Of a stretch of DNA of 64,000 bases, positions 29,539 to 45,325 are shown piece by piece (within the stretch, counting starts at the first letter, position 1; the number at the start of each line of letters is the position of its first letter). Below the pieces are notes generated by a model. The model saw only the letters and a program-made list of their open reading frames with translations, ran no database searches and had not been told where the DNA came from. This DNA comes from Salipiger pentaromativorans (GTDB lineage Bacteria > Pseudomonadota > Alphaproteobacteria > Rhodobacterales > Rhodobacteraceae). The position numbers and the translations under genes were made by a program. Location of the stretch: NCBI RefSeq assembly GCF_024721115.1, contig NZ_JAMDHK010000003.1:1-64000 (forward strand). Direction: 5' to 3'.

Positions 29539-30021
29539 CTAGGCGGTTTCGCGCAGCGCCTGAAACCGCCCCGAGTAGAACAGCAGCGGGGCCTGTCCCG
29601 CCGCGTGGTCGATCTCGCGCACCCGGCCGATAAACAGCGTATGATCGCCCGCCGGCACCTCGGCCGCGACATCGGCGAAAAGCTGGACCGAGGCCCCCGG
29701 CACCACCGGCAGCCCGTGCTTGATCTCGAGCAGCGCGCCCAGGTCGGGATCGGGGCGCCCGGCGAAATGCAGCGCCACGTTCTCCATGCCTTCGGCCAGG
29801 ATATTGACCGCGTAACGGCCCGCGGCCCGCACCTTCCCGAGCATCCGCGACCCGTTGTCGAGCGAGATGCTGATGAGCGGCGGATCGAGCGAGACCGACA
29901 TGAAGGCGTTTGCCGTCATCCCGTGATCGCCGTTCTCGTCGGTGGTGGTGATCACCGTCACGCCGGTGGCAAACCGCCCGCAGGCGTCGCGCAGCGCGCG
30001 GGGGTCGATGGTGTCAGACAT
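29539..30021 (-). CDS. Flavin reductase partner of HpaB-type monooxygenase
   Basis: The 160-residue protein is a short-chain FMN/FAD reductase of the HpaC type: RDACGRFATGVTVITT near the start, the GMTANAFMSVSLDPPLISIS flavin-site block and a C-terminal GDHTLFIGRVREID. It reduces FAD with NAD(P)H and releases FADH2 to the oxygenase component. The start at 30021 lies inside the last codons of the FAD synthetase gene (8-base overlap). It is the last gene of the dioxygenase-monooxygenase-FAD synthetase-reductase operon. Confidence 0.88.
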   Translation of the reverse strand: MSDTIDPRALRDACGRFATGVTVITTTDENGDHGMTANAFMSVSLDPPLISISLDNGSRMLGKVRAAGRYAVNILAEGMENVALHFAGRPDPDLGALLEIKHGLPVVPGASVQLFADVAAEVPAGDHTLFIGRVREIDHAAGQAPLLFYSGRFQALRETA

Positions 30022-30637
30022 CCGGGTCTCCTGCGTATTTTGTCTGGTCCAGCACCAGCCGCCCGGCCAGCAGCGCGCCGGTCCCCGGACTGCCATGCAG
30101 CCTGTCGGCCAGGTCGCGCCGGCCCTCGGCGCGCAGCCTGCGGATGCGCGAGGACGAGACGACCTCCTCCCCGGCGCAGCAGACCGGCGCGAAGGGCACG
30201 ACCGGAAACCGCTGCGACAGCAGCGCCACGTCGCCCGCCTGCTGCGCGCCGAAACGAAAATCGCCGCCGACATGGACCTCGGCGGGGCGAAGCCGCCCCA
30301 GCACCTCCAGAAACGCCTCCGCGCTGCGCTTGCGATAGGTCTCGGTAAAGGAGGCAACGACGATGTAATCGGGCGAAAGCAACCCGATCCGCGCCAGCTT
30401 GTCGTCGAGCCGGGAGAGTTGTTCGAGCCCGGCGAAGAACACTTTCGGCGGCGGATCGAAGGTCCAGACCACCGCAGGCAGACCCAGCGCCTGCGCCCGC
30501 GCCACCGTCTTGCGGATCAGCGCCTGATGGCCGCGATGCACGCCGTCGAAGGCGCCGATCGTCACCACCGAGCCCGGCAGGTCCAGCAGCCCTTCGGGCA
30601 TCACTTCGGTGCGGCTCCCGGAATACTCTCCCAGCAT
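30014..30637 (-). CDS. Stand-alone FAD synthetase (RibF N-terminal domain)
   Basis: The protein matches the adenylyltransferase half of RibF: VVTIGAFDGVHRGHQALI (nucleotide-binding GxFDGxHxGH) and a later VSSSRIRRLRAEG block. At 207 residues the riboflavin kinase half is absent, so it would make FAD from FMN and ATP but not FMN from riboflavin. A GGGAGGAG ribosome-binding site precedes the ATG. Its position between the FADH2-dependent oxygenase and its reductase suggests a dedicated local supply of FAD for the pathway. The housekeeping bifunctional RibF must lie elsewhere. Confidence 0.82.
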   Translation of the reverse strand: MLGEYSGSRTEVMPEGLLDLPGSVVTIGAFDGVHRGHQALIRKTVARAQALGLPAVVWTFDPPPKVFFAGLEQLSRLDDKLARIGLLSPDYIVVASFTETYRKRSAEAFLEVLGRLRPAEVHVGGDFRFGAQQAGDVALLSQRFPVVPFAPVCCAGEEVVSSSRIRRLRAEGRRDLADRLHGSPGTGALLAGRLVLDQTKYAGDPDV

Positions 30638-30701: not shown

Positions 30702-32255
30702 TCAGGCGGGCTGGAAGCTCTCGCCGATCCGGTTCACGTCCCACGGATTGACCATGTCCGGCGCCAGCCAGCCCGAGAGATCGTATTCGGCCATGTAGCT
30801 GTCCACGATCCCGCGCATCGCCTCGAGATCGCCGGTCGCCTGGGCGCCCATCAGGGTCTCGACCCGGATGCCCTCGTAGTTCCCGGCATAGTTCATCTCG
30901 TAAAGCTGGTGCCGGCCGCCGAATTCCGAGCCCATCGCATCCCAGAGCAGCTTCAGCAGCTTCACCCGGTCCACCGCCAGGATCCCGTTCGAACCGCGCA
31001 CGAAGCGGTCGAGATAGGGCCGCAGTTCGGCGCTCTGGAAATCCTTGGCCGAGGATGGCAGGTAGATCAGCCCCGAGGCCACATGGCGCTCGATCAACTC
31101 CTTGATGCGGGTATAGGCCATGGGCGCGAAGACACGGTAGGCCGCCCCGTAATTCATATTGGGCTGATAGAACCCGTCTGTCCCGGCCCAGGGCGTGCCG
31201 CTCTTGACCATGGCATCCGAGAGCCCCCAGAACAGGTTGCGCCAGGCGATGACCTCGCCCACCGCCGTCTGCGGCCCGCGAAAGCCCCCCGCCCCCGTGG
31301 CATCGAGCGCCTTGGAGAACAGCCCCGCGATGAAATCGAGCTTCACCGCCAGCCGGGTCACCCCGTGCAGGGTGAAGCGCGGCGCAAAGCCCGAGGCCGG
31401 GACAAAAGCGTTCACCGCCTCGACATCGCCATAGACAAAGATGTTCTCCCAGGGGACCAGCACCTTGTCGAAGACGAGGATCGCGTCGTTCTCGTCGAGC
31501 CGCGAGGACAGCGGGTAATCGAAGGGCGAGCCCATCACCGCCGAATTCAGCTCGTAGGACGCCCGGCTGATGAGCTTGATCCCCTCCGAGCCGATGGGCG
31601 CGGTGAAGATCAGCGCGAATTTCTTGTCCTTGATGGGCACGCCGTAATGGGCGACGAAATTCGCATGCGTCAGGGCCGAGCCGGTGGCCACCACCTTGGC
31701 GCCCGAGACCACCACGCCGGCGTCGGTCTCTTTCTCCACATGCATGAAGACATCGCCGGCCTCTTCGATCGACAGATGCCGGTCGATGGGCGGGTTCACG
31801 ATGGCGTGGTTCCAGTAGACCACCCGCTCCTGCGCCTTCTTGTACCAGTCGAGCGCGTTTTGCTTGTACTCGCCGTAGAAATCCGCGTTGGCGCCCAGCG
31901 TACCCAGAAAGGCCGCCTTGTAATCCGGCGCCCGGCCCATCCAGCCATAGGCGGCACGCTGGGTCTCGGCGATGGCGTCGCGGCCCGCGACCAGTTCCTC
32001 GACCGATTTCGCGCCCTTGTAGAACGGGTGCGTCCAGCTTCCCTCGCCGGTGTCGGTGCAGACCCCGATCTGGTCCTTCTTCTCGTGCAGCCGGTCGTAC
32101 CAGCGCGCGATCATCCGGGCCGAGTTGCGGAAGGCGGGGTGGTTCACCACGTCCTTCACCTTCTCGCCGTGGATATAGACCGACCGCCCGTCCTGGAGGC
32201 TGTCGAGGAATTCCGCCCCGGTGAAGGGGCTGACCTCTGTGACGTGATCCTTCAT
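30702..32255 (-). CDS. hpaB: HpaB-type FADH2-dependent aromatic monooxygenase
   Basis: This is the oxygenase component of a two-component flavin monooxygenase in the 4-hydroxyphenylacetate 3-hydroxylase family, which hydroxylates phenols ortho to the existing OH to form catechols. The 517-residue length and blocks such as [59 protein letters not shown] and [11 protein letters not shown] fit the family. The start at 32255 follows GGAGGAAACGCC. The downstream genes handle dmp-type rather than hpa-type intermediates, so the true substrate may be phenol or a simple phenol derivative rather than 4-hydroxyphenylacetate. It lies 20 bases after the dioxygenase gene. Confidence 0.85.
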
Positions 32256-32275
32256 GGCGTTTCCTCCGGCTCCGG

Positions 32276-33253
32276 TCATTCCGCCGCCGCGGCGGCTTGC
32301 GGCATGTCGGGCGTGCCGTAGAGGAAGAATTCCTGCGGCACCGGCGAGCCGTAGAAGATCACGCCCTGATCGAGATTTTCCTCGGTCCAGGTGCGGGTCT
32401 TCCAGGCCGGATCGAAGATCAGATAGCCGCAGTCGCCGAACAGTTCGACACGGTTGCCGCCGGGTTCGTAGACATACATGAACATCGCCTGGCTGATGCC
32501 GTGCTTGCCCGGGCCGGCCTCGACCTGGATGCCGCGTTCGGCAAAGACATCGGCGATGTCGTTGAGATGCTGCGGCAGCCCGTACCAGAAGGCCACATGG
32601 TGGAAGCGGCCCTTGGCGCCCGAGCGGTCCTTCATACAGGCGATCTCGTGCACCAGCGGGCTGACGCTCATCCAGGCGCCCGCCTCTTCGCCGCCGAGAA
32701 CGATGTTCTCGCGGGTGCGGAAGCCCAGCGCATCCTCATAGAAACCGCGGGTCTCGGAGACGTCCGAGGTCATGATGTTCACATGGTCCAGCCGGCGCAC
32801 CGGCACGCCCTGAAGCGGGCGTTTCTGCGGACGGTTGAGCAGGCAGGAGCGGTCCTCCTCGGGGATCTCCGCGTAATCCACATCCCAGAAGATCCGGTTC
32901 AGGTGGCCGTCGGGCGAGGTGAACTCATAAGCCTTGCCATGGCCCGTGGCGCCTTCGATCCAGCCCCGGCCAAGCCCGGTCTTCTCCACCGCGGCGGCGC
33001 GGCGCTCCAGCGCCTGCGGCGACAGCGAACGCCAGCCGATATGGCCCAGCCCCGGCTTGTCGCGGTGGGTGATGGTCAGCGAATGGTGATAGAAATCCTC
33101 ATAGGCGCGCATATGCACCGAATTGCCCTCGCGCCCTGCGACGCTCATGCCGAGCAGATCGCGGAAGAACCAGACGGTGGCATCCACGTCCGGCGAATAG
33201 ATTTCCACATGGGCAAGCTGGGCCACGTCGTGGATCGGTTCCTGATAAGTCAT
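32276..33253 (-). CDS. Extradiol (VOC-fold) catechol dioxygenase
   Basis: Two vicinal-oxygen-chelate domains (about residues 10-135 and 155-290) make this a type I extradiol ring-cleavage dioxygenase, which opens a catechol next to the hydroxyls using Fe(II). The metal ligands expected in the second domain are visible: His in [13 protein letters not shown], His in FHHVAFWYG and Glu in [10 protein letters not shown]. The start at 33253 has an AGGGAGGAC ribosome-binding site and gives 325 residues. It opens the operon with hpaB, and a 28-bp element shared with two other catabolic promoters lies about 320 bp upstream, implying a long 5' leader. Confidence 0.85.
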
Positions 33254-33567
33254 GCCAAAGTCCTCCCTGGATGCTGGATACATGCTGTCCGCCCCGCCAT
33301 CGGGCCGGCGCTAGACTGGTCCCCTCGCCGCCGGATCGCCGGAGGCCGCAGACGGCCCGACCGGCACCGCGCAACGCGGCGGAGCGGATGTTTCATTCCT
33401 TGCAAGCGGCTGACTCTGCGGACCGGCGGCCGCCGATGGCGCGACAAGGCGCACATCTCCGATGCACCAGAACAGGTGCCTGCGGCCAGTTTGCTTCCGC
33501 ATCGTCTCCTCCCTTTGTCGTCGAGGCCAGAAAGCCCGTCTGAACTGTCTCGAGAGCGGAAAGAAAT

Positions 33568-33595
33568 AAGCGTTTTGTCAAATAAAAAACGTTTT
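33568..33595 (-). promoter_or_regulatory. Shared regulon element, dioxygenase-hpaB promoter
   Basis: On the minus strand the element carries AACG-TTTTT, then TTGACA (33576-33581 on the plus strand as TGTCAA), then AACG again at 19-bp period. It closely matches the elements at 38468-38495 and 45298-45325. The TTGACA is a perfect -35 hexamer for the dioxygenase operon; the -10 is not obvious. Confidence 0.6.
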
Positions 33596-33876
33596 TTTGA
33601 GAGGCCTCGGAAAACCCGGGACAAACATATGAAAAATATGATGTTTTTACCGCCCCTCCCGCCGCGGAACGAGTCCGCCGGGGGAAAATCCCCTCCCGAA
33701 CCGCCAGGATCGGCAGCATCCTGCCGCCGGTTTCGCGCCGGACGAATCCGGCCTCCCCCGCCGGGCGGCGCTTGCAGAGCCGCCCGGCGGACGCTACCCT
33801 CGGAACCACAGGCTCGGCCCGCGCCTCCCCCCTCCGTCCGGGGAAGTATCTCACATACGGGGCATCGGCTTCCTTG

Positions 33877-33888
33877 GAACATCTGTTC
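33877..33888. promoter_or_regulatory. GAACA/TGTTC palindrome before DnaB-like gene
   Basis: GAACA-TC-TGTTC is a perfect 5-bp inverted repeat 54 bp upstream of the DnaB-like ATPase gene. It resembles Gram-positive-type SOS boxes but not the usual alphaproteobacterial LexA box (GTTC-N7-GTTC), so its meaning is open. Confidence 0.3.
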
Positions 33889-33941
33889 GAGCTTGCGCAT
33901 GCGGAGGGGTTGCGATTCCGGCTCGTTCTGGAGGTTCTGAA

Positions 33942-34655
33942 ATGCGCCTTTCCGCGCCTGTCCACCATCTGAAACGCCGTGCCCGCGCCCTCTCGCGCGA
34001 GGCCCGGATTCCGCTTCATGCCGCGCTCGACCGCATCGCCCGCGACGAGGGCTTTGCCACATGGGGCCCGCTGGCGTCGCGCCTTGCGGCGGACGCTCCG
34101 GCCGGCCCCCTGCTGGCGCGGCTCTCGGAGGGCGATCTGCTGCTGCTCGGCGCCCGGCCCGGCCAGGGCAAGACCCTGCTCGGGCTCGCCCTGCTGCTCG
34201 ACGCACTGCGCGAGGGCCGCAGGGCGGTGTTCTTCACGCTGGAATACACCGAGGCGGAAACGCGGGCGCGGCTGCGGGCGCTCGAGGGCGGCGACAGCCC
34301 GTTCGGCGCCCGGCTCGAGATCGTCACCTCGGACGAGATCGACGCGGCCTTCATCGCCGGGTATCTGGCAGAGGCGCCGCGCGGCAGCGTCGCGATCATC
34401 GACTATCTGCAAATCCTCGACCAGCAGCGGCACAAGCCCGCGCTGGCCGATCAGCTCCGCGCGCTGCGTGCCTTCGCCCACGCGCGCGGCATCGTTCTGG
34501 GCTTTCTCTCGCAGTTCGACCGCCGGTTCGATGCGGCGCAAGCGCCGCTGCCCGGGCTGCGCGACATCCGCCTGCCCAACCCCGTCGATCTGGACCTGTT
34601 TTCAAAGGCCTGCTTCCTGCATGCCGGCGAGCTGCGGTTCGAACACCTGCACTGA
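33942..34655 (+). CDS. DnaB-like RecA-fold ATPase
   Basis: Residues 40-237 form a P-loop domain like the C-terminal half of DnaB helicase: Walker A GARPGQGKT (about residues 71-79), FFTLEYTEAETRAR, and Walker B SVAIIDYLQILDQQ. The N-terminal 38 residues form a basic helical segment (LKRRARALSREARIPLHAAL) ending in GFATWGPLA. The DnaB N-terminal domain and linker are missing. A GGAGG ribosome-binding site precedes the start. It stands alone on the plus strand between minus-strand catabolic operons. The DNA substrate and function are unknown; similar stand-alone proteins occur in related bacteria as far as I recall. Confidence 0.7.
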   Translation: MRLSAPVHHLKRRARALSREARIPLHAALDRIARDEGFATWGPLASRLAADAPAGPLLARLSEGDLLLLGARPGQGKTLLGLALLLDALREGRRAVFFTLEYTEAETRARLRALEGGDSPFGARLEIVTSDEIDAAFIAGYLAEAPRGSVAIIDYLQILDQQRHKPALADQLRALRAFAHARGIVLGFLSQFDRRFDAAQAPLPGLRDIRLPNPVDLDLFSKACFLHAGELRFEHLH

Positions 34656-34665
34656 GCGGCGCGAA

Positions 34666-34690
34666 GCGCGGGCCGTGACCCGGCCCGCGC
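34666..34690. terminator. Hairpin between convergent genes
   Basis: GCGCGGGCC (34666-34674) and GGCCCGCGC (34682-34690) form a perfect 9-bp stem in the 52-bp gap between the DnaB-like gene and the convergent hydrolase gene. There is no T-run, so it may act as a bidirectional transcript end or only a stabilising hairpin. Confidence 0.4.
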
Positions 34691-34707
34691 ATCCCCCGGC
34701 GGGATGC

Positions 34708-35529
34708 TCAGCTCAGGAAATCCGCGACCAGCGCGTTGAACCGCGCGGCCTTTTCGATCTGCGTCCAGTGCCCGCACTGGCCGAACACATGCAGCTCGGC
34801 ATCGGGCAGCAATTCGAGAAACCGATAGGCATTTGCGACCGGGATCACCCGGTCGTCGCGCCCGTGCACCACCAGCGCCGGAACCGAGATCCCGGCAATC
34901 GCCTCGGGCTCCGAGGCCAGCATCCGGATTCCCTCCTGACGCGGCGCCGGGAACATCGCCGAAAACCGCTCCATCACGCCCGGCCTGATCGTCGCCCTGT
35001 GGCGCAGCTCGGCCAGATCGTCGTTCACGAACCGCGTGTCGAAGGCAAAGACCTCCAGCAGCCCGCGCATGTTCTCGAGCGAGGCCTCATAGCCCCAGAC
35101 CCGATCGAGCCCATCGGTCAGCGGGAACTCCAGCCCGGCGGCCCCCATCAGCACCAGCTTTCCGACCGCGTCGGGGTAGCGGATGGCATAGGCCAGCGCC
35201 AGCGCCCCGCCAAAGGAATTGCCGATAAGGGCAAAGCGCTCGAGTTCCAGCGCCTGCACCAACCCGTGCAGGTGATCGACCCAGCCCGCCATGGAATAGC
35301 GCCCGTCGGCGGGCGGATCGGTATAGCCGAAACCCATCATGTCGGGCGCGATGCAGCGCAGCCCCGCCGCGGTCAGCGCCGGCAGAGTCAGCCGCCAGTT
35401 GGCCCAGGCCGAGACCCCCGGCCCCGACCCGTGGATCAGCAGCACCGGCGGCCCCGCGCCCAGATCGTGCACATTCGTGGCGATGCCGTTCACGAGGATC
35501 TGACGGCCGATTTCGGGATTGTCGCTCAT
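34708..35529 (-). CDS. Meta-cleavage product hydrolase (alpha/beta fold)
   Basis: The 273-residue protein is an alpha/beta hydrolase of the DmpD/XylF/BphD group, which splits ring-fission products to a carboxylic acid and 2-hydroxypenta-2,4-dienoate. It has the oxyanion block LLIHGSGPGVSAWANW, nucleophile elbow LIGNSFGGALAL (Ser near 107), acidic residue in VHGRDDRVIP and catalytic His in GQCGHWTQIEKA. It is the last gene of the second TRAP operon (7 bases after DctM), tying uptake to ring-fission chemistry. Confidence 0.85.
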   Translation of the reverse strand: MSDNPEIGRQILVNGIATNVHDLGAGPPVLLIHGSGPGVSAWANWRLTLPALTAAGLRCIAPDMMGFGYTDPPADGRYSMAGWVDHLHGLVQALELERFALIGNSFGGALALAYAIRYPDAVGKLVLMGAAGLEFPLTDGLDRVWGYEASLENMRGLLEVFAFDTRFVNDDLAELRHRATIRPGVMERFSAMFPAPRQEGIRMLASEPEAIAGISVPALVVHGRDDRVIPVANAYRFLELLPDAELHVFGQCGHWTQIEKAARFNALVADFLS

Positions 35530-35536
35530 GGCCGCC

Positions 35537-36835
35537 TCACATCAGCCCCGGCAGGAACAGCGCGATGGCCGGGAAGGCCAGCATCAGCCCCATGCGCAGG
35601 ATGTCGATGGCAATGAAGGGCAGCAGGCCGCGGTAGATCGTGGCGAGCCCGATGTCGCGCTCCACCGAATTGATGACGAAGACGTTCATCCCGATGGGCG
35701 GCGTGATCAGCCCCAGCTCGATGGCCACCACCACCATGACGCCGAACCAGATCGGATCGAAGCCCAGCCCGGTCACCACCGGGAACAGGATCGGCACGGT
35801 CAGCACCACCATGGCCATGCTGTCCAGAACGCAGCCCAGTGCAAGATAGAGCAGCAGGATCAGCGCCATGATCACATAGCGGTTCACCTCAAGATTCGTG
35901 AGGTATTCCGCGACGTTCTGGGGCGTTCTTGTGATCGCCAGGAAATAGGAGAACAGCAGCGCCCCGATGAAGACGAAAAAGATCGAGATCGAGATCCGCA
36001 GGCTTTCGATCAGGCACTCCATGATGGCCTGCCGGTCGAGCCGCCCGCGCAGCACCCCGATTGCCAGCGCGCCCACGGCCCCCAGCGCAGAGGCTTCGGT
36101 GGGGGTGACGATACCCGCATAGATGCCGCCCACCACCAGCAGGAACAGCAGCCCGATGGCCCAGACCTCGCGCAAGGCGCGGAAGCGCGCGGCCCAGCTT
36201 TGGCGCTGGCCCACGGGCATGTCGGCGGGGCGCAGATGCGCGATGACCGAGACGGTCAGCATGTAAAGCCCCACAGCCAGCAGCCCCGGCAGCAGGCCGG
36301 CGATGAACAGCTTGCCGATGTCCTGCTCGGTGATGATCCCGTAGACCGCCAGCACGATCGACGGCGGGATGAGGATGCCCACCGTGCCGCCGGCGGCGAT
36401 CACCCCCGACGAGACCGAGTCGGAATAGCCGACCCGGCGCATCTCGGGCAGCGCCACCTTGGTCAGCGTCGCCGCGGTGGCGATGGACGAGCCCGAGATC
36501 GCCGCGAACCCGGCGCAGGAGGCGATGGTGGCCAGCGCCAGACCGCCGCGCCGGTGCCCGAGCCAGGCCTCGGCCGAGCGGAACAGCTCGCGGCTCATGC
36601 CCGAGCGGGTGGCGAAGGCCCCCATCAGGATGAACATGGGGATCATCCCCAGATGATAGGTGGTGGCTGTCGACAGCGGCGACAGCGACACCAGCTTCAG
36701 CGCCTGCGGCAGGCCCACCACGGCGGCAAAGCCGCCGATGCCCACCAGGCTCATCGCAATCGCGATGGGCACCCGAATGGCCATCATGAAAAAGAGGGCC
36801 GCAAAGCCCACAAGGGTCACCGTTTCCCGATCCAT
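35537..36835 (-). CDS. TRAP transporter large permease (DctM type)
   Basis: This 432-residue large TRAP permease has blocks SGSSIATAATLTKVALPEM and AAGGTVGILIPPSIVLAVYG and about twelve hydrophobic segments. The start at 36835 places it 10 bases after the DctQ stop; a longer frame begins inside DctQ. It is part of dctP-dctQ-dctM-hydrolase and is only distantly similar to the TRAP permease at 22.7 kb, so the two systems are not a recent duplication. Its likely cargo is the aromatic or acidic substrate of the meta-cleavage pathway. Confidence 0.92.
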   Translation of the reverse strand: MDRETVTLVGFAALFFMMAIRVPIAIAMSLVGIGGFAAVVGLPQALKLVSLSPLSTATTYHLGMIPMFILMGAFATRSGMSRELFRSAEAWLGHRRGGLALATIASCAGFAAISGSSIATAATLTKVALPEMRRVGYSDSVSSGVIAAGGTVGILIPPSIVLAVYGIITEQDIGKLFIAGLLPGLLAVGLYMLTVSVIAHLRPADMPVGQRQSWAARFRALREVWAIGLLFLLVVGGIYAGIVTPTEASALGAVGALAIGVLRGRLDRQAIMECLIESLRISISIFFVFIGALLFSYFLAITRTPQNVAEYLTNLEVNRYVIMALILLLYLALGCVLDSMAMVVLTVPILFPVVTGLGFDPIWFGVMVVVAIELGLITPPIGMNVFVINSVERDIGLATIYRGLLPFIAIDILRMGLMLAFPAIALFLPGLM

Positions 36836-36845
36836 GTCGTTTCTC

Positions 36846-37385
36846 TTATTCCTCGATGGTCCGCACGGGGGCGGCATCGCCCGGCTGCGCGCCGCGGATC
36901 AACATCCACAGCCGCAGCGCCGTCACCAGCGTCGCCAGCCCCGCGCCCACCACCATCAGCCAATAGGCCGGCCAGATCTGTAGGCGCAGGTCGTAGGAGT
37001 GTTCGCCCGTGCGGAACACATCCGCCGCGTTCTCGCCCATCTTCCAGGTCAGCACCCCGAACGAGAGCAGCACCAGCGCGGTCGAGACGATGTCCATCGC
37101 CCGTTTCCACCCCGTCCCCGCCGCCTCGTAGAGCAGATCCACTGCGATATGCGTGCCGCGATAATTCACGCTGGCCACGCCCCAGAAGATCGCGATCCCC
37201 AGCGCCAGCCGCCCGAAATCATGCGCATCCGGAATCGGCGCCGAGGCCACGTAGCGCATGAAGGCGGACACGAAGGCCAGCAGCGTCACCAGCCCCATGA
37301 GCAGCGCCGCCGCCGTCTCGACCCAGCCCGCGAGACGGCGGAGCCCGAAGGCTCCGCCAGGCATGGTGTCAGAACTTGGCGTCAT
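36846..37385 (-). CDS. TRAP transporter small permease (DctQ type)
   Basis: This is the four-helix DctQ subunit, with the typical YRGTHIAVDLLYEAAG block after the second helix. Helices are seen near ETAAALLMGLVTLLAFV, ALGIAIFWGVASV, VSTALVLLSFGVLTW and YWLMVVGAGLATLVTAL. Two starts are possible: 37385, which overlaps the dctP end by 17 bases, and 37364, just after the dctP stop. I kept the longer one with moderate confidence because a GAGG lies before it, though closely spaced. Confidence 0.85.
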   Translation of the reverse strand: MTPSSDTMPGGAFGLRRLAGWVETAAALLMGLVTLLAFVSAFMRYVASAPIPDAHDFGRLALGIAIFWGVASVNYRGTHIAVDLLYEAAGTGWKRAMDIVSTALVLLSFGVLTWKMGENAADVFRTGEHSYDLRLQIWPAYWLMVVGAGLATLVTALRLWMLIRGAQPGDAAPVRTIEE

Positions 37386-38385
37386 GGGCCTCGAGCCGCT
37401 CGACAAAGCCCTGATAGATTGCCTCGGCATCGAGCCCGGCGGCGTTCACGCGCTGCTTCCAGTCGTCCAGCAGGAAGGCCGAGGCGTCTTTCCACTGCGC
37501 CAGCTCGTCCCCGGTCGGCGCGATCACATGGTGATCGGGGCTTTCCTCGAACAGCCGTTTGCCCTCGTTGTCGAACCCCACCCATCCGGCGGCGATCTTT
37601 TCGCCCCATCCGGGCGTGCAATGGTCGTCGATGACCGCCTGCTGGGTCTCGGACAGCGCCTGATAGCGGTCCTTGTTCATCACAATGATGAAGTTGGTCA
37701 CGTAGAGCGGCATATCGAGATGGTAATGCACCACGTCATCCATCCCGAAGATCGAGATCGAGCGCCAGGGGAAGGTGATCCCGTCCGCCGCGCCGCGCTC
37801 GAGCACCTCGCGGGCCTCGGACGGCCCCACCTGCACCGACGAGCCGCCAAGGCTCTGCATGAGCCGGCCGATCGTGCCGTTCGCCGGGCGGATGGTGGTG
37901 CCCTTGATCTGCGCCGGCGTACGGATTTCCTCGCGCGAATGCAGCGTGCCCGGATCGTGCAGATGGACGACGCAGAATTTCACGTCCCCCATCTCCTGAT
38001 CCATGTAATCGGCATACCATTCGTTCATCGCCACCGTGCCGCCCAGGCCCGACTTGATGAAGAAGGGCAGCTCGCCCAGCGACATGATCGGAAAGCGGCC
38101 CGGCGTGTGCCCCGGGTTCGCCCAGACAAAATCGGCGATGCCGAATTTGGCGATGTCGTATTCGTCCTCGGCCTTGCCGAGCTGCCCCGCCGGGAAGAAT
38201 CCGATCTTCAGCGTCCCGCCCGATGCCTCGGCGATGCTGTCCGCCCAGACCTGGAAGCCTTCCGCATGCAGCGGGTGCTGGGTGGGCAGATCGTGCGAGA
38301 ACGTCATCTCCACGACCTTGTCTTCGGCAAGCGCCGATCCCGCGATTGCGCAAGCTGCAATCGCCCCGAGAATTCGCTGTTTCAT
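37369..38385 (-). CDS. TRAP transporter substrate-binding protein (DctP type)
   Basis: A signal peptide (MKQRILGAIAACAIAGSALA) precedes a 318-residue DctP-fold binding protein. The block RTPAQIKGTTIRPANGTIGR contains the Arg that usually contacts the ligand carboxylate, and GAADGITFPWRSI follows. The start at 38385 has a GGAGGAG ribosome-binding site. Its promoter, about 65 bp upstream, carries the regulon element shared with the dioxygenase and dmpC operons, so uptake is probably induced together with catabolism. An aromatic carboxylate is a reasonable ligand guess, not shown by sequence. Confidence 0.9.
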   Translation of the reverse strand: MKQRILGAIAACAIAGSALAEDKVVEMTFSHDLPTQHPLHAEGFQVWADSIAEASGGTLKIGFFPAGQLGKAEDEYDIAKFGIADFVWANPGHTPGRFPIMSLGELPFFIKSGLGGTVAMNEWYADYMDQEMGDVKFCVVHLHDPGTLHSREEIRTPAQIKGTTIRPANGTIGRLMQSLGGSSVQVGPSEAREVLERGAADGITFPWRSISIFGMDDVVHYHLDMPLYVTNFIIVMNKDRYQALSETQQAVIDDHCTPGWGEKIAAGWVGFDNEGKRLFEESPDHHVIAPTGDELAQWKDASAFLLDDWKQRVNAAGLDAEAIYQGFVERLEAHDAKF

Positions 38386-38453
38386 CTGTCTCCTCCAAAA
38401 GACTTTGCGCAAGCGACCGGTTCCCCGGCTCTCTTTGCGCCTCCTCCACGCCG

Positions 38454-38495
38454 ACAGTATGTATCAAAATCGTTGTGTCAATAAAAAATCGTTTT
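38454..38495 (-). promoter_or_regulatory. Shared regulon element and promoter of second TRAP operon
   Basis: On the minus strand TTGACA (38476-38481) and TACTGT (38454-38459) are separated by 16 bp and form a plausible promoter. AATCGTT occurs at 38468-38474 and 38487-38493 on the plus strand, a 19-bp direct repeat that brackets the -35. The minus strand also shows TTG-ACA-CAA, the short dyad type bound by GntR/FCD regulators. The gene for such a regulator is divergent, starting at 38600. Confidence 0.65.
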
Positions 38496-38599
38496 ATGTT
38501 GGAATCCGCAAGTGACATGGCGTCCCGAAGCATGGGCGACGTTGTGCATTCAACGAACCTTTGCTACGACCTTAATTCCGGGACATCAGTCAGACTGCC

Positions 38600-39307
38600 A
38601 TGAACCAGCCAGAAAACCTGACGGTCCCCGAGGCCAACGGCGCGGGGAAACGCACTGCAATCGAGACCGTTCACGCACAGATCCGCGAACGGGTGATCTC
38701 TGGCGCCTTCAAGCCCGGAGAGCGGCTGCATGTGGACAAGCTGCGGCAGGAATTCGGGGTCTCGACCTCGACCATGCGCGAGGCGATCTCGCGGCTGCTG
38801 ATCGACTCTCTGGTCACCTCGGAACAGCAGCGCGGCTTTCGCGTGGCGCCGCTGTCGCTCAAGGATTTCCGCGACATCACCGATGCCCGCAAGGTGATCG
38901 AGGCGCAGGCGCTGCGCGTCTCGCTGGCCAATCGCAGCGAGGAATGGGAGGCCGAGCTGGTCGGCGCGTTCCACCGGCTGTCGACGGTCGAGCAGAAGAT
39001 GATCGGCGAGGGCCAGCGCGATCTGGCCAGCGCCTGGGACGAGCGCAATGCCGGGTTTCACGACTGCCTGGTGAAGAATTGCAACAACGCCTGGCTGATC
39101 CGCTTCCGGCGCACCCTGCACCAGCATTCCTACCGCTATCACCGGATGCTCCTGGGCGACACCAGCCTGCGCCGCGACGTGCGCACCGAACACCGGGCGA
39201 TCTTCGACACCGCCATGGCGGGCGAGACCGACCGCTGCGTGGCGCTTATCGAAGAGCATATCGAGACCTCGTATCGCGACCTCATCAGCCAGCACACGCT
39301 GGACTGA
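38600..39307 (+). CDS. GntR-family regulator with FCD domain
   Basis: The 235-residue protein has an N-terminal GntR winged helix (QIRERVISGAFKPGERLHVD, EFGVSTSTMREAISRLL) and a helical FCD effector domain (about residues 95-230). Metal or ligand residues of the FCD pocket are seen: Asp in FRDITDARKVIE, His in NAGFHDCLV, His in RTEHRAIFDTAM and His in LIEEHIETSYRD. FCD regulators bind small organic acids or aromatic intermediates. It is divergent from the TRAP operon and beside the dmp operon, making it the prime candidate to bind the shared 28-bp element. Its stop abuts the ABM gene end with no gap. Confidence 0.9.
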   Translation: MNQPENLTVPEANGAGKRTAIETVHAQIRERVISGAFKPGERLHVDKLRQEFGVSTSTMREAISRLLIDSLVTSEQQRGFRVAPLSLKDFRDITDARKVIEAQALRVSLANRSEEWEAELVGAFHRLSTVEQKMIGEGQRDLASAWDERNAGFHDCLVKNCNNAWLIRFRRTLHQHSYRYHRMLLGDTSLRRDVRTEHRAIFDTAMAGETDRCVALIEEHIETSYRDLISQHTLD

Positions 39308-39874
39308 TCACGCGAAAAGCCAGCCCTTCAGCACCCGCGTCACCCGTGGCATCAGCACATAGGTGAGCAGCAGAACCTGCACCACGACGATGAGCAGCGA
39401 GCGCAGCCAGTGCGGCCAGCCCGGCGTCAGAGGCGCCACGGCAAGCTGGAGCGGATAGACCACGACAAAGACCACCACGGTCAGCACCAGCGCCATCTTC
39501 CATTGCGGCGCCGGCTTTTGCGCCGGCACCTCGGGCAGCTCGAACCAGGCCTCCAGCCCGGTCGCCCGGCGCATCCGCGCCGGGCCCTCGACGATGCCCT
39601 CGAGCCGGTCGATCCAGCGCGCGCGGATCTCGGAGCCCTCCCAGGATTCGCAATGCGCCCAGCTATCGAAACGATAGATCAGCACCCAGCGCCCGCCGGT
39701 CTGCCCCGAGGGCCGCAGCACGTTCACGCCCAGATGACCGGGAAAGCCCGACGCGGCAGCGACGATGCCATGCACCCAGTCCTCGTAATCGGCCTCGCGC
39801 CCGGGCAGCACCCGGCGCGAGATCGACACGGTGACCGGCCCCTCCTCGCCCGGGGCGACCTCGACGCCGCTCAC
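39308..39874 (-). CDS. ABM-domain protein with two C-terminal membrane helices
   Basis: The N-terminal 110 or so residues form an antibiotic-biosynthesis-monooxygenase (ABM) ferredoxin-like fold (VSISRRVLPGREADYEDW..., RWVLIYRFDSWAHCESWEGS). Two membrane helices follow (MALVLTVVVFVVVYPLQLAV and SLLIVVVQVLLLTYVLM), so it is an inner-membrane protein with a cytoplasmic ABM head. I chose a GTG start at 39874 that overlaps the tautomerase stop (GTGA), giving 188 residues. It ends the dmp operon. ABM domains can act as quinol or polyketide monooxygenases or as haem or intermediate handlers; the role here is unknown. Confidence 0.7.
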   Translation of the reverse strand: MSGVEVAPGEEGPVTVSISRRVLPGREADYEDWVHGIVAAASGFPGHLGVNVLRPSGQTGGRWVLIYRFDSWAHCESWEGSEIRARWIDRLEGIVEGPARMRRATGLEAWFELPEVPAQKPAPQWKMALVLTVVVFVVVYPLQLAVAPLTPGWPHWLRSLLIVVVQVLLLTYVLMPRVTRVLKGWLFA

Positions 39875-40065
39875 CCGCTCTTGTCGAGGAATTTCTGCTT
39901 GCCCGCGACACCCCAGTTCTCGCGGGGGATCTCGCGGATGCAGACGCGCACCGCCTCGATGGGCGCGCCCACCGCCTCGACCGCCGCATCGGTGAGCTTC
40001 TCGATCAGCGCCGCCTTCTGCGCGTCCGTGCGGCCCTCGACCATGGTCACTTCGATAAAGGGCAT
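39871..40065 (-). CDS. dmpI: 4-oxalocrotonate tautomerase
   Basis: This tiny enzyme (64 codons) isomerises 2-hydroxymuconate to 2-oxo-3-hexenedioate. After Met removal it starts with Pro1, the catalytic base; Arg11 (VEGRTD) and Arg39 (EAVRVCI), the substrate-binding arginines of the family, are exactly placed, and Trp50 stands where many relatives have Phe50. It lies between the decarboxylase gene and the membrane ABM gene with 2-4 base junctions. The hydroxymuconate route therefore looks functional. Confidence 0.93.
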   Translation of the reverse strand: MPFIEVTMVEGRTDAQKAALIEKLTDAAVEAVGAPIEAVRVCIREIPRENWGVAGKQKFLDKSG

Positions 40066-40067
40066 GT

Positions 40068-40835
40068 CTACGCCTCCACCCTGAATGCAACGGTGCCGAG
40101 GCGCTCGACCTCGAGGCTCACCGCCTGCCCCGCCGCCAGCGGGATGGCCGCCGTGGCGCCCCCCGCCAGAACGATGTCGCCCGCGTTCAGCCGCTCTCCG
40201 GCCGAGGCCACCATCCGCGCGGCCGCCACCAGCGAGCGCAGGGGATGGCCGAGGATCGCCGCCGAAGAGCCGATCTCGCCGGCGCGCCCGTCGATGGACA
40301 GCAGCATGCCGAGGTTGGAAATGTCGGTCTCGCGGCTGGCCCATTGCCCGAGCACAAAGGCCGAGGACGAGGAATTGTCGGCAATCACGTCGCCCACATC
40401 GAACTTGAACGCCTTGTAACGGCTGTCGATGATCTCGAGCGCCGGCGCGACGGCCTCGACCGCGTCCATCGCCTGAAGCGCGCTCACCTCGCCCGCAAGC
40501 GGCTTTTTCATCAGAAAGGCGATCTCGGGCTCGACGCGGGGATGCACGAATTGCGCCATCGAGACCGTGCCGCCCTCCTCGCGCATCATCGCATCGGTGA
40601 GCCGGCCCCAGGTCACGTCCGAAACGCCGACCTGAAGCATCTTGGCGCGCGAGGTGAGGCCCATCTTGATCCCCACCCGCCGCTCGCCGCGCCCGTAGCG
40701 GCGCTGCATCGACAGCGCCTGCACCGCATAGGCCTCTTCGACACTCAGCGGCCTCTCGTCGGAAAACTGCGGAATCTCGGACGCCGTGCGGGCGGCCTCA
40801 TCGACGATCCCGGCGATCTCGGCAAGGCCGCTCAT
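40068..40835 (-). CDS. dmpH: 2-oxo-3-hexenedioate decarboxylase
   Basis: The 255-residue enzyme removes CO2 from 2-oxo-3-hexenedioate to give 2-hydroxypenta-2,4-dienoate. It shares a fold with the hydratase encoded in the same operon, but decarboxylase-type blocks decide the call: [54 protein letters not shown] and [14 protein letters not shown]. The metal ligands (Glu-Pro-Glu of the HPRVEPEIA block) are present. Its ATG overlaps the aldolase stop (ATGA). Confidence 0.88.
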
Positions 40836-41851
40836 TCCGCCGCCTCCCGCGCCTTGCACATGTCGAGCGCGACATCGACGATCATGTCTTCCTGACCGCC
40901 CACCATGCCGCGCCTGCCCAGTTCCACCAGGATCTCGCGGGTGTCGAGCCCGTATTGACCGGCGGCCTTTTCCGCATGGCGCAGGAACGAGGAATAGACC
41001 CCGGCATAGCCCAGCGTCAGCGTCTCGCGGTCCACCCGGACGGGGCGGTCCTGAAGCGGGCGCACCAGATCCTCGGCCGCATCCTGCAACTTGAACACGT
41101 CGCAGCCATGGTCCCAGCCATACAGATTGGCGACCGCGGCAAAGGCTTCGATGGGCGTGTTGCCGGCCCCGGCCCCCATGCCCGCCAACGAGGCATCGAC
41201 GCGATAGGCGCCGTGTTCGACCGCCACCACCGAGTTGGCCACCGACAGAGACAGGTTCTCGTGCATATGCGCGCCAAGCTGGGTTTCGGGCTTGAGCGCG
41301 GCCCTGTAGGCATCCATGCGCTCGGCCACGCCGGTCATGGTCAGCCGCCCGCCGCTGTCGGTGCAATAGACGCAATCCGCGCCATAGCTCTCCATCAGAA
41401 CCGCCTGTTCGGCCAGCTTCTCGGGCGTGTTCATATGGGCCATCATCAGAAAGCCCGAAACATCCATGCCCATCTCCTTCGCCGCGGCGATATGCTGGGC
41501 GGCGACATCGGCCTCGGTGCAATGGGTCGCGACACGCACCGAAACGACGCCCGCGTCACGCGCCTTTTTCAGATCCTCGAGCGTGCCGATGCCCGGCACC
41601 AGAAGGCAGGTGAGCCGGGCGCGCTTCACCACCTTCGCCGCCTCCGAGATCCAGGCCACATCGGTATGGCGCCCGAAACCGTAGTTGAAGGTCGACCCGG
41701 CGACGCCGTCGCCATGGGTCACCTCGATGGCATCCACGCCCGCCTCGTCCAGCGCCTCGGCGATGGCCCGCACCTGCCCGAGATCGTACTGGTGGCGCAT
41801 GGCGTGCATGCCGTCGCGCAGGGTGACATCCTGAATATAGATCTTGGGCAT
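40832..41851 (-). CDS. dmpG: 4-hydroxy-2-oxovalerate aldolase
   Basis: This 339-residue HMGL-like TIM-barrel aldolase splits 4-hydroxy-2-oxovalerate into pyruvate and acetaldehyde. The Mn-binding and catalytic motif [17 protein letters not shown] is at the N-terminus, and the later metal histidines are in [18 protein letters not shown]-terminal region (about 270-339) interacts with the partner dehydrogenase in this family. It directly follows dmpF, with which it forms a channelling complex that protects the cell from free acetaldehyde. Confidence 0.95.
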
Positions 41852-41852
41852 G

Positions 41853-42806
41853 TCAGGCGGCCTCCTTCACCCAGTTGCGTTTCACGGCCAGCCGCTCGGC
41901 GGTGCGCATGGCGGCGCTGGTCATGATGTCGAGATTGCCCGCATAGGCCGGCAGGTAATGCGCGGCCCCTTCCACCTCGAGAAAGACCGACACCTTCAGC
42001 CCGGTGAAATCGCCGCCCATCTCGGGAATGTGCAGCGGCTGGTTCGAGCCCACATGTTCGAACTGCACCGCCTGCTTGAGCCGGTAGCCGGGGACGTAGC
42101 TCTGCACCTCTTTCACCATCTCGGCGATGGAGGCGCGGATGGCCTCCTGATCGGCCTCGTCGCAAAGGCAATAAACCGTGTCGCGCATGATCATGGGCGG
42201 CTCGGCGGGGTTCAGAATGATGATCGCCTTGCCCCGCGTGGCGCCACCCACCTGCTCGATGGCATGGGCCGTGGTCTCGGTGAACTCGTCGATATTGGCG
42301 CGCGTGCCGGGACCTGCGGATTTCGACGAGACCGAGGCAACGATCTCGCCATAGTGCACCTTGGCAACGCGGTTGACGGCGGCGACCATGGGAATGGTCG
42401 CCTGCCCGCCGCAGGTCACCATGTTGACGTTGGGCTCGGCCAGGTTTGCGTCGATGTTGACCGGGGGGATGGTAAAGGGGCCGATGGCGGCGGGGGTGAG
42501 GTCGATCACCTGCTTGCCGTCGCGCTGAAGTACCGCGTTGTGGCGCTTGTGCGCGCCAGCCGAGGTTGCATCAAAGACGATGCGGATGTCCTTGTATTCA
42601 GGCAGCTTTACCAGACCGTCAATGCCCTCGTGCGTGGTCGCCACCTTGAGCCGGGCAGCCCGGGCAAGCCCGTCGGACGCAGGGTCGATCCCCACCATGG
42701 CGGCCATTTCCAGCACGTTCGAATTGCGCATGATCTTGATCATGAGATCGGTGCCGATATTGCCCGAGCCGATGATGGCGCATTTGATCTTGTCCATATC
42801 CCTCAT
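41853..42806 (-). CDS. dmpF: Acylating acetaldehyde dehydrogenase
   Basis: The 317-residue protein oxidises acetaldehyde with NAD+ and CoA to acetyl-CoA, in complex with the aldolase. It has the Rossmann start [16 protein letters not shown] and the catalytic cysteine in [15 protein letters not shown] (near 133). The start at 42806 overlaps the hydratase stop (ATGA); an in-frame ATG three codons later is possible. The small size and sequence are typical of the meta-cleavage-pathway enzyme and unlike general aldehyde dehydrogenases. Confidence 0.95.
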
Positions 42807-43594
42807 CCCTTTGCAAAAGCCGCGCGGACCGAGCCCAGCCCGTTAATCCGCGCCTCGAAGACATCGCCCGGTTTCGCCGCCACGAAGGGCCCCAGCGCCC
42901 CCGACAGGATCACGTCTCCCGGCCCCAGCGGACGCCCCGCCGCCGCCATGGTGCGCGCCAGCCAGAGCGAGGCGTTGAGCGGGCTGCCCATGCAGGCCGC
43001 CCCCGCGCCCACCGACACCGGCTCGCCGCCGCAGGTCATCACCATGCCGCACAGGCGCTGGTCGAAATCGGCCAGGCTCCGGGGCGACTGGCCCAGCACG
43101 TAAAGCCCCGACGAGGCGTTGTCGGCGACCGTGTCGGTGATCCCGATGTCCCAGGCCGCGACCCGCGACCCCACGATTTCGATGGCGGGCAGCGCATAGG
43201 CGATGGCGCCGATCAGATCGACCATGGTCAGATGCGCCCCGGCCAGCGGCGCGCCCAGCACATAGGCGATCTCGGCCTCGACACGGGGCTGCTGCACCCG
43301 GTCCCAGGCCACCTCCTCACCGTCCATCACCTCCATGTCGGAAAACAGCATGCCGTAATCGGGCTGGCCGACGCCAAGCTGCCTCTGCACCGCCACCGAG
43401 GTCAGGCCGATCTTGCGCCCCGACAGCTTGCGCCCGGCGTCCAGCCAGCGCGTGGTGTTGATCTCCTGCACCGCATAGGCCGCCGCCACATCGCCCTCGC
43501 CGAGCAGATCGCGCACGGGCGCCCCGGGGGTGCCGCTCTCCCAGGCCTGCCACAGACGGTCCGCGGCCTCCCGGATCTTGACTTCGCTGGTCAT
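42803..43594 (-). CDS. dmpE: 2-oxopent-4-enoate hydratase
   Basis: This 263-residue hydratase adds water to 2-hydroxypenta-2,4-dienoate to give 4-hydroxy-2-oxovalerate. Hydratase-type blocks shared with MhpD are [46 protein letters not shown] and [15 protein letters not shown]. These separate it from the paralogous decarboxylase encoded at 40.1-40.8 kb. It accepts product from both the hydrolase branch and the tautomerase/decarboxylase branch. The dehydrogenase gene dmpC ends 9 bases upstream. Confidence 0.9.
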
Positions 43595-43603
43595 CGTTCG
43601 CCT

Positions 43604-45088
43604 TCAGAGTTTCACGCAGACATTGCTGAGCTCGGAATAGAATTCGAGCCCGTGGACACCGCCTTCGCGGCCGATGCCCGAGTGTTTCGCCCCGCCGAAG
43701 GCGGTGCGCAGGTCGCGCAGGAACCAGGAATTCACCCAGACCAGCCCCACGTCGATCCGCCGCGCCACGCGATGGGCACGGGTCAGGTCCTCGGTCCAGA
43801 GCGCGGTGGCCAGACCGTAATCGGTGTCATTGGCCATGGCGATGACCTCCTCCTCGCTGTCGAAGGGGGTGATATGGCAGACCGGGCCGAAGATCTCTTC
43901 CTTCACGCAGCGCGCGGTTTCCGGCAGCCCGGTCAGGATCGTGGGCTGCACCCAGGCGCCGCCCTTCATCTCGTCCGGCATGTCGGGCTCGCCGCCGCCG
44001 GTGATCACCGTGGCGCCCTCTTCCTTCGCCAGCGCGTAATAGGACAGCACCTTGCGCTTGTGCTCCTCCGAGATGAGCGGGCCGAGATTGGTCTCCGGAT
44101 CCTCCGACGGCCCCAGCTTCAGCGCCTCGGCGCCGGCCTTCAGCCGCGCCACGAAAGCGTCGAAGACTGGGCGTTCCACATAGACCCGCTCGGTGCCCAG
44201 GCAGACCTGCCCGCAATTGGAAAAGACCGACTGCATGGTGCCCGCGACGGCCTTGTCCATGTCGCAATCGGCAAAGACGATGCCCGCGTTCTTGCCGCCG
44301 CATTCCATCGAGACCTGACGCAGCCCCTTGGCCGCCGATTGCATGATGATCTCGCCGGTGCGCGTTTCGCCGGTGAAGGTGATGCCGTCCACATCCGGAT
44401 GCGCGGTGAGATACGCGCCGGCGCTGTCCGGGCCGAACCCGTGCACCACGTTGAACACCCCCTTGGGCACCCCCACCGTGTTCATCACCTCGCCCAGCAG
44501 CGTGGTGGTGAGCGGTGTCTCTTCCGAGGGTTTCACGATCACCGTATTGCCGCAGGCCAGCGCCGGCCCCACCTTCCAGGTCATCAGCAGAAGCGGCAGG
44601 TTCCAGGGCGAGATCACCGCGATCACCCCCTTGGGCTTGCGCACCCCGTAGTTCAGCGCCCCTGCCCCGTCCGGTGTCTCCAGCATGAAACTTTCGGTGG
44701 GCACGTTCTTGACCAGGTCGGCGAAGATCTTGAAATTGGCCGCCCCGCGCGGGATGTCCACATGCGCGGCCAGGCTGCGCGGCTTGCCGGTATCGAGGAT
44801 CTCGGCCTCGAGGAAATCCTCGAAGCGGCGGTTGATCTCGTCGGCGACGGCATGCAGCAGCGCCGAGCGCTCGGCCATCGGCATATGCCCCCAGGGGCCG
44901 GTCAGCGCCGCGCGCGCGGCGGCGACGGCGGCATCGACCTCGGGTTTCAGCCCTTCGTGCACGATGCCGATCTTCTTGCCGGTCACCGGCGAGATATTGT
45001 CGAAGATCCGGCCCGAGCTGCCGGCGGTGAACGCCCCGTCGATGAAATGCATCGCCTCGCGTGTGGTGGCAATCAGCCCGTCCTTCAT
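43604..45088 (-). CDS. dmpC: 2-hydroxymuconic semialdehyde dehydrogenase
   Basis: The 494-residue aldehyde dehydrogenase oxidises 2-hydroxymuconic semialdehyde, the catechol ring-fission product, to 2-hydroxymuconate with NAD+. Typical blocks are VISPWNLPLLLMTWKVGPAL, the catalytic Glu region QVSMECGGKNAGIVFADCD and the catalytic cysteine in NCGQVCLGTERVYV. The start at 45088 is preceded by AAGGG at suitable spacing; the longer frame reads through the leader. It is the first gene of dmpC-E-F-G-H-I-ABM, whose promoter carries the shared regulon element. Confidence 0.92.
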   Translation of the reverse strand: MKDGLIATTREAMHFIDGAFTAGSSGRIFDNISPVTGKKIGIVHEGLKPEVDAAVAAARAALTGPWGHMPMAERSALLHAVADEINRRFEDFLEAEILDTGKPRSLAAHVDIPRGAANFKIFADLVKNVPTESFMLETPDGAGALNYGVRKPKGVIAVISPWNLPLLLMTWKVGPALACGNTVIVKPSEETPLTTTLLGEVMNTVGVPKGVFNVVHGFGPDSAGAYLTAHPDVDGITFTGETRTGEIIMQSAAKGLRQVSMECGGKNAGIVFADCDMDKAVAGTMQSVFSNCGQVCLGTERVYVERPVFDAFVARLKAGAEALKLGPSEDPETNLGPLISEEHKRKVLSYYALAKEEGATVITGGGEPDMPDEMKGGAWVQPTILTGLPETARCVKEEIFGPVCHITPFDSEEEVIAMANDTDYGLATALWTEDLTRAHRVARRIDVGLVWVNSWFLRDLRTAFGGAKHSGIGREGGVHGLEFYSELSNVCVKL

Positions 45089-45297
45089 GAATCTTACCCT
45101 TCCTGCCGCTGGGTCCGGCGGCGCAAACCGCCCGGACGCGCAGATTTCATCCAAATCCGTGAAAGGGTCCGATCCTGTGCCGCCTCCGGCAGAGCGGATC
45201 GCGGCACGCGCCGCCGATCCGGCTCTATCCGCCGCGTTTGGGCACACCCCGGACTCTCCTCCACAGTCATCCTCCAAGCCAAGCATTGTCGAGTTTA

Positions 45298-45325
45298 AAC
45301 GTTGTTGTCAATAAAAAACGATATT
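45298..45325 (-). promoter_or_regulatory. Shared regulon element, dmpC operon promoter
   Basis: The minus strand reads ATCGTTTTT-TATTGACA-ACAACGTTT. TTGACA (TGTCAA at 45306-45311 on the plus strand) is a perfect -35, and ATCGTTTTT and AACGTTTAA recur with a 19-bp period as in the other two copies. A leader of about 190 bases separates it from dmpC. The -10 is not clear. Confidence 0.6.

Follow-up and report, generated by a model that had tools for sequence, protein, structure and literature searches.

A pair of CG-centred boxes at three catabolic promoters of Salipiger pentaromativorans and its probable reader, an AphS/BphS-like GntR/FCD regulator

The 64,000-nucleotide stretch of Salipiger pentaromativorans DNA analysed here (hereafter the window) carries three minus-strand operons for the degradation of phenol-type compounds. 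Operon A encodes a catechol 2,3-dioxygenase (C23O) and the components of an HpaB/HpaC-type hydroxylase, operon B a TRAP transporter and a hydrolase, and operon C the dmp-type enzymes. An earlier note on this DNA, made from the letters alone, had claimed that the operons cover uptake, hydroxylation, ring fission and the lower pathway, and family searches of the open reading frames (ORFs) found all of these functions. The gene of a GntR/FCD regulator (gntR), which the note had described as divergent from one of the operons, is divergent from operon B. Each of the three promoters carries a copy of a short AT-rich element, designated here as putative operators A, B and C (Table 1), and these elements and the regulator that may read them are the subject of this report.

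The element exists at all three promoters and is unique to them in the genome. Each copy consists of two AT-rich, CG-centred near-palindromes (boxes), one on either side of a TTGACA -35 hexamer. The earlier note had described three 28-bp elements; all are present, and its coordinates are exact for A and B and one base off for C, which lies at 45297-45324. Operator B occupies the intergenic region shared by the TRAP/hydrolase operon and the divergent gntR. Compared two by two, the three copies show 5, 8 and 10 mismatches over the 28 positions. The distance from CG to CG is 19 bp in A, B and C, and TTGAC follows the left C at 10 bases in operators A and B and at 9 bases in operator C (counted by eye). 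Operator C has an extra box-like CG at 45290, 29 bp from its first CG. When both strands of the window were scored with a matrix of the three sites, A, B and C reached 49, 47 and 45 bits and the best non-overlapping place 14.4 bits (37663); the only other scores above 20 bits came from A, B and C themselves, read on the opposite strand or shifted by one base. A pattern free of the -35 (WAWCGWTW-N11-WAWCGWTW, at most one mismatch), which is its own reverse complement and so matches on both strands, found A, B and C and nothing else in the 5.28-Mb genome (39 contigs), and the reversed-pattern control found no place. Patterns that included the -35 performed less well: a looser one was unspecific (22 places genome-wide versus 12 for its control), and a second one found B and C and missed A, with one place in its control.

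The earlier note had inferred binding of the regulator in part from a short TTG-N-CAA dyad, which did not hold up as the site when sequences were compared. The dyad is present in A and C and absent from B, it consists mostly of the -35 hexamer, and by eye it is conserved in only three of 18 compared sites, which were themselves chosen by pattern or matrix. We therefore rejected it as the recognition element. GT/AC half-sites were not found as a shared element, the shared boxes being CG-centred. The likely recognition element is the pair of CG-centred boxes rather than the dyad.

The element is also conserved at orthologous promoters. Comparison with orthologous upstream regions, the check that the earlier note had called for, showed that the boxes recur at the dmp and TRAP promoters of Celeribacter: the pair is found at the dmp-operon promoter in all seven genomes and at the TRAP promoter in six of the seven. 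In C. neptunius the TRAP-hydrolase operon lies on a different contig from gntR and still carries a site with 0 mismatches (L057, L100). In C. persicus no TRAP gene was found in the 2.5 kb before gntR, the rest of the genome not having been searched for one. The seven Celeribacter genomes gave 18 pattern places, 13 of them at dmp or TRAP promoters; the five elsewhere are at background level because the reversed-pattern control also gave five (2, 2 and 1 in three genomes). Among genomes with more distant regulators, G031 (regulator 47% identical) has a pair at its gntR/C23O-dmp promoter and a row of three boxes at 19-bp intervals upstream of a multicomponent phenol hydroxylase (Phenol_hyd_sub and Phenol_Hydrox), and G049 (54%) has a row of boxes, 19 bp apart, before gntR. 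In G017 and G104 (36-37%) the sole pattern place precedes the regulator homologue, while the control gave 1 and 4 places in these genomes.

A further box of the TCCTCGACATTT type lies before gntR in Celeribacter (loci L022-L028). It is 38 bp from another box in five of the seven loci and 39 bp from another in L022, and it stands alone in L025. It is possible that this box is an autoregulatory site.

Within the genus, 6 of 20 genomes gave a match to the regulator at 1e-30, and all but that of the window were 30-34% identical; the lack of a close copy in the other genus genomes searched suggests that the cluster came by transfer. Across the family, 25 of 394 genomes gave a match at 1e-40 in a scan that scored the best seven candidates per genome, and one scan of named genomes found the regulator at 69-75% identity in seven Celeribacter genomes. 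Plasmids are a further source, with matches in 344 records. Seven loci, taken from 40 listed, were inspected, and six of them hold aromatic-degradation genes near the regulator relative: bph genes on the plasmids of Polaromonas naphthalenivorans CJ2 and of KF715; dmpG, an acetaldehyde dehydrogenase and a TRAP transporter on that of Simplicispira; oxygenases and a catechol 2,3-dioxygenase on that of P. aromaticivorans; bphC and todJ on that of C. campinensis; and an oxygenase and meta-pathway genes on that of Sphingobium YBL2. On the seventh, from Marivivens, no aromatic-degradation genes were found near the relative. The window protein is 38.4% and 40.1% identical to the bph-operon regulators of CJ2 and KF715, respectively. 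The bph-operon regulator of CJ2 is called BphS in the literature (PMC6449761), and we equate it with the plasmid gene because the gene order agrees. In a tree, the proteins of the window, Celeribacter, G049, G031 and G323 fall into one 19-row group with BphS-type proteins (support 92/85), so that the regulator groups, with moderate support and on a short branch, with the BphS-type regulators of bph operons.

The DNA-reading part of the protein departs from the better known relatives. The arginine of the S-R-T-P-V-R motif, present in the five solved FCD relatives that were aligned, is replaced by Thr56 in the window protein, and none of 47 aligned rows has arginine at this position, the row of Sphingobium YBL2 being broken and unreliable. 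In Atu1419 of A. fabrum, Arg45 is described as contacting DNA specifically (PMC7797058), and this residue is probably the one aligned with Thr56 because of its numbering and spacing relative to Thr46 and Arg49. Membership in the CsiR family was considered and rejected: NF008576 is the best NCBIfam match of the protein, yet it scores 127.8 bits against a cut-off of 218.

The boxes resemble the published operator of AphS and BphS, repressors of phenol and biphenyl meta-cleavage genes in Comamonas, Acidovorax KKS102 and Polaromonas CJ2. The AphS/BphS motif is reported as AAATmTCGAkATTT, with multiple sites (PMC6449761), and that of AphS as TATCGTAT (PMC3063778). For 58 regulator homologues, four near-identical rows having been dropped, we scored the region before the gene (350 bp plus 30) against the 14-position consensus. 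Of these regions, 26 have a best match at 10 or more positions (shuffle mean 8.46), 12 have one at 12 or more (shuffle mean 0.20, maximum 2 in 400), eight have one at 13 or more (shuffle mean 0.02) and four match at all 14 (shuffle mean 0.00, maximum 1).

Pairs of WCGW cores 19 bp apart occur in 19 of 40 regulator-upstream regions from which no rows were dropped, while each of the other spacings from 4 to 44 bp occurs in 0 to 9. After addition of the seven plasmid loci and removal of three near-identical rows (44 regions), 20 regions have the 19-bp pair; the other spacings average 4.40, with a highest value of 11 (at 39), and shuffles give a mean of 3.50 for 19 bp with a maximum of 10 in 1000. 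Without the window and Celeribacter, the pair remains in 15 of 37 regions (shuffle mean 3.18, maximum 9). Consensus boxes matching at least 8 of 14 positions lie 19 bp apart in 14 of 51 regions, again without the window and Celeribacter and with four near-identical rows dropped; the next spacing is 29 (four regions), shuffles give a mean of 0.81 and a maximum of 4 for 19 bp, and over all spacings between 10 and 80 no count above 6 arose in 400 shuffles. Most of the regions with spacings 38 and 57 come from Celeribacter (five of six and four of five, respectively). On the plasmids, WCGW pairs 19 bp apart lie within 350 bp before the regulator in two of seven cases (CJ2 and P. aromaticivorans), and the C. 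campinensis plasmid has one such pair before a hydrolase gene. The motif was taken here from later papers, and the primary literature on AphS, PhcS and BphS may already have described the 19-bp spacing. A different arrangement is seen before three distant regulators (L037, L040 and L048), where AphS/BphS-type boxes matching 11-14 of 14 positions are 29-30 bp apart, about one helical turn beyond 19.

In the loci examined, the box pair follows the presence of the regulator, not that of the enzymes. The -35-free pattern was applied, with up to two mismatches allowed, to thirteen 20-kb loci around dmpC homologues. Six of them (G385, G039, G179, G272, G291 and G318) lack a close regulator homologue, having no match at 1e-40 in the genome and no GntR match in the locus, and in none of these six was a 19-bp pair found. 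G385, G039, G179 and G272 are C23O-dmpCEFGH clusters, while G291, whose genome is 73% complete, and G318, which holds a distant regulator homologue (32%) elsewhere, show only dmpC and a weak dmpE. C23O relatives at 57-60% identity occur in the four regulator-less C23O-dmpCEFGH clusters. Among the other seven dmpC loci, the pattern has three places in G031 and two in G049. By a second criterion (both boxes AT-rich and matching the published motif at 8 or more of 14 positions; L024 not included), G031 has four pairs, and G323, which the strict pattern missed, has two pairs at 19 bp, one of them beside gntR; the six regulator-less loci and the four with distant regulators have none. This criterion leaves out operator C of the window and everything in L025 and L089, as well as the dmp sites of L022, L023 and L028.

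HpaB relatives (55-79% identity) were found in nine other genomes, and none of the nine has a CG-centred pair within 1.5 kb; L136 has one two-mismatch match without CG, and wider stretches around four of the nine revealed no pair either. Eight of these genomes are outside the regulator-positive set and one, G273, is inside it at 38%. In none of the nine was a C23O relative found beside HpaB, the C23O-HpaB-HpaC layout having been seen in the window only. Among the copies examined, the hydroxylase genes bear the operator only here.

The reading that we regard as quite probable, drawn from these sequence comparisons, is that an AphS/BphS-like repressor acts on tandem boxes over the promoters of a meta-cleavage regulon and is relieved by a ring-fission product. 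The earlier note had proposed a single regulon and, from position, a link to the GntR/FCD protein; both are supported by the conservation at orthologous promoters, the C. neptunius TRAP site away from gntR, the absence of the pair at the six regulator-less loci and the likeness to the published operator. A, B and C would be the operators of one regulon, read by the GntR/FCD protein encoded divergently from B, with one dimer per box and the register held by the fixed spacing. Once bound, the protein would lie over the -35 hexamer and the spacer between it and the -10 and, without substrate, would keep RNA polymerase off all three operons. Basal C23O activity would then yield a meta-cleavage product that releases the regulator, and release would induce the genes for uptake, for hydroxylation and ring fission, and for the lower pathway at the same time. 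Four of these points are inferred: that the protein binds directly, that it represses rather than activates, that one dimer sits on each box, and what the inducer is. With the boxes on both sides of the -35 and the right one in the -35/-10 spacer (the -10 boxes are weak and are candidates only), the layout is the one expected of a repressor. In KKS102 the operators of BphS are reported to overlap the start site, and repression is lifted by the meta-cleavage product HOPDA (PMC11448139, PMC10282184); because of this precedent, the inducer in Salipiger may likewise be a ring-fission product.

Several observations weigh against this reading. The window boxes miss the strict consensus, the left boxes of A, B and C matching 10, 10 and 12 of 14 positions and the right boxes 8, 9 and fewer than 7, and their core is WCGW where the published motif has TCGA. 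Of 8479 CG places in the window, 17 score at least 10, so that A and B are not picked out by the consensus alone: the top place is the left box of C (12/14), two unrelated places score 11/14, and the left boxes of A and B are among 14 places at 10. The shuffles preserve composition and not kinship, and some of the regulators counted are closely related. In a separate, small set of 15 proteobacterial homologues (no rows dropped), 19-bp WCGW pairs occur in three (shuffle mean 0.98, P = 0.064), and 11 other spacings are as frequent or more so. Three loci with a distant regulator, TRAP genes and dmpC (G233, G273 and G092) lack the pair, and a fourth (G290) has a single two-mismatch match without CG. 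The gntR genes of C. persicus and C. neptunius, which have no TRAP operon beside them, also lack a 19-bp pair. Finally, the fork that joins the regulator to BphS is short (0.017) and not starred in a tree rooted at its midpoint.

Relatives of the regulator can also activate, and the GntR protein might bind the boxes and activate, or do both, which we consider rather unlikely. BphR1 of KF707, of the same class, is reported to be an activator (PMC10282184), a precedent that speaks for activation and against repression. However, the same source attributes repression in KKS102 to a promoter-blocking operator and activation in KF707 to a non-overlapping one, and the window boxes flank the -35. About equally improbable is a single regulon whose boxes are bound by another transcription factor encoded elsewhere, the adjacent GntR protein having a different site. 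In its favour, motifs of the FadR subfamily are described as usually GT-N0-3-AC (PMC4494728), which the window boxes are not. Nevertheless, a sizeable share of the relatives have AphS/BphS-type boxes, often 19 bp apart, in front of gntR itself, and the pair is missing from the six meta loci that lack a close homologue of the regulator. That A, B and C are merely strong promoters sharing an AT-rich tract and a TTGACA -35, with no operator, is very improbable: TTGAC does lie between the boxes in 17 of the 18 pattern- or matrix-picked sites, but the -35-free pattern still finds just A, B and C, the CG-CG distance is fixed at 19 bp while TTGAC moves by 1 bp between TRAP-type and dmp-type promoters, and the 19-bp spacing is enriched upstream of regulator genes.

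The coordinates of the features are collected in Table 1. The start of the C23O gene was set at the ATG behind AGGAGGA, the longest ORF beginning at 33283. For dmpC, the longest ORF extends to 45286, and the domain starts near residue 80. The true start of the ORF with the antibiotic-biosynthesis-monooxygenase-type (ABM) domain is probably further in, because the ORF overlaps at its 5' end, in a different frame, with the gene of the tautomerase. The Celeribacter dmp operons of L022-L025 carry a different C23O, 25-27% identical to that of the window; it is preceded by a 2Fe-2S ferredoxin in L022 (17941-18363) and followed by an HbpS-like gene in L025 (16513-16962). Elsewhere in the window, two adjacent amidase-family ORFs at 26153-28752 (+) adjoin the catabolic operons, a short DnaB_C-type ATPase (NCBIfam NF004629 'DNA helicase', over cut-off) lies at 33942-34655 (+) between operons A and B, and a 2468-aa ORF with cadherin-like, Ig, FG-GAP, RTX-repeat and DUF4214 domains at 52612-60018 (+) probably encodes a surface or secreted protein.

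Table 1 Putative operators, regulator and catabolic genes of the window.
Feature	Position	Strand	Remarks
Operator A (putative)	33568-33595	-	CG at 33590 and 33571; promoter of C23O/HpaB/HpaC operon
Operator B (putative)	38468-38495	-	CG at 38490 and 38471; promoter of TRAP/hydrolase operon
Operator C (putative)	45297-45324	-	CG at 45319 and 45300; promoter of dmp operon
GntR/FCD regulator, AphS/BphS-like	38600..39307	+	235 aa; PF00392 and PF07729 over cut-off
C23O, operon A	32276..33253	-	TIGR03211 over cut-off
HpaB-type flavin-dependent aromatic hydroxylase, oxygenase component, operon A	30702..32279	-	NCBIfam below cut-off, Pfam over
ORF with HpaC-type flavin reductase domain in C-terminal part, operon A	29539..30357	-	
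TRAP solute-binding protein DctP, operon B	37369..38385	-	Curated NCBIfam cut-off passed
TRAP small permease, operon B	36846..37430	-	Weak match
TRAP large permease DctM, operon B	35537..36877	-	Curated NCBIfam cut-off passed
Alpha/beta hydrolase, BphD/HsaD meta-cleavage type, operon B	34708..35529	-	Below curated NCBIfam cut-offs
2-Hydroxymuconic semialdehyde dehydrogenase (dmpC), operon C	43604..45049	-	Curated NCBIfam cut-off passed
2-Oxopent-4-enoate hydratase-like (dmpE), operon C	42803..43594	-	NCBIfam below cut-off
Acylating acetaldehyde dehydrogenase (dmpF), operon C	41853..42806	-	Curated NCBIfam cut-off passed
4-Hydroxy-2-oxovalerate aldolase (dmpG), operon C	40832..41851	-	Curated NCBIfam cut-off passed
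ORF with 2-oxo-3-hexenedioate decarboxylase-like domain (dmpH) in C-terminal half, operon C	40068..41522	-	NCBIfam below cut-off
4-Oxalocrotonate tautomerase (4-OT, dmpI), 64 aa, operon C	39871..40065	-	
ORF with ABM domain, last gene of operon C	39308..40090	-	

Compared with known systems, the window is closest to AphS/BphS. In both, a GntR/FCD regulator stands beside meta-cleavage genes, and the promoters carry AT-rich palindromic boxes centred on CG, in several copies (two at each of three promoters in the window). The region before the CJ2 regulator holds two WCGW boxes 19 bp apart, and the window operons encode phenol/biphenyl-type upper steps together with meta-cleavage. The window regulon differs by its TRAP transporter and its HpaB-type hydroxylase and by its division into three operons with one pair each. 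A search of the genome for XylR_N (PF06505), the mark of an AphR-type sigma-54 partner, found none, but 14 control genomes were silent too; two BphS genomes are reported without AphR (PMC6449761). The footprint of P. putida CsiR, a GntR/FCD repressor of glutarate genes, is described as spanning the -35 and -10 (PMC6667623), similar to the layout in the window, whereas the families of the window operons belong to the meta pathway. In the tetrameric FCD/VanR protein Atu1419, a dimer is reported to occupy each 10-bp palindrome and the tetramer can hold two (PMC7797058). Atu1419 differs in its palindrome, ATGTATACAT, with two copies 190 bp apart in one promoter region (PMC7797058), and in having Arg45 where the window protein probably has Thr56.

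The regulon is a new member of a form of control already described in bacteria that degrade phenol and biphenyl. What is new in it is the 19-bp grid, the regulators without the usual base-reading arginine, and the hydroxylase genes that bear the operator only here among the copies examined. A bolder idea, to which we hold only tentatively, is that an FCD branch without the base-reading arginine reads CG boxes on a 19-bp grid, with its dimers bound as a phased array, and that the HpaB/HpaC and C23O genes joined the regulon here; the grid would be built on 19, joined by 29 in a number of relatives and, for the most part in Celeribacter, by 38 and 57. A literature search of titles and abstract openings, in which subscription papers were thinly covered, found none that names this regulator in Celeribacter, Roseobacter-type or alphaproteobacterial degraders. 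The analysis turns a guess from position into a testable regulon with a defined operator and a precise spacing rule, and it widens the range of AphS/BphS-type control to take in the Celeribacter group and its relatives. That the hydroxylase and C23O genes carry the operator here, while their relatives do not, suggests regulatory capture.

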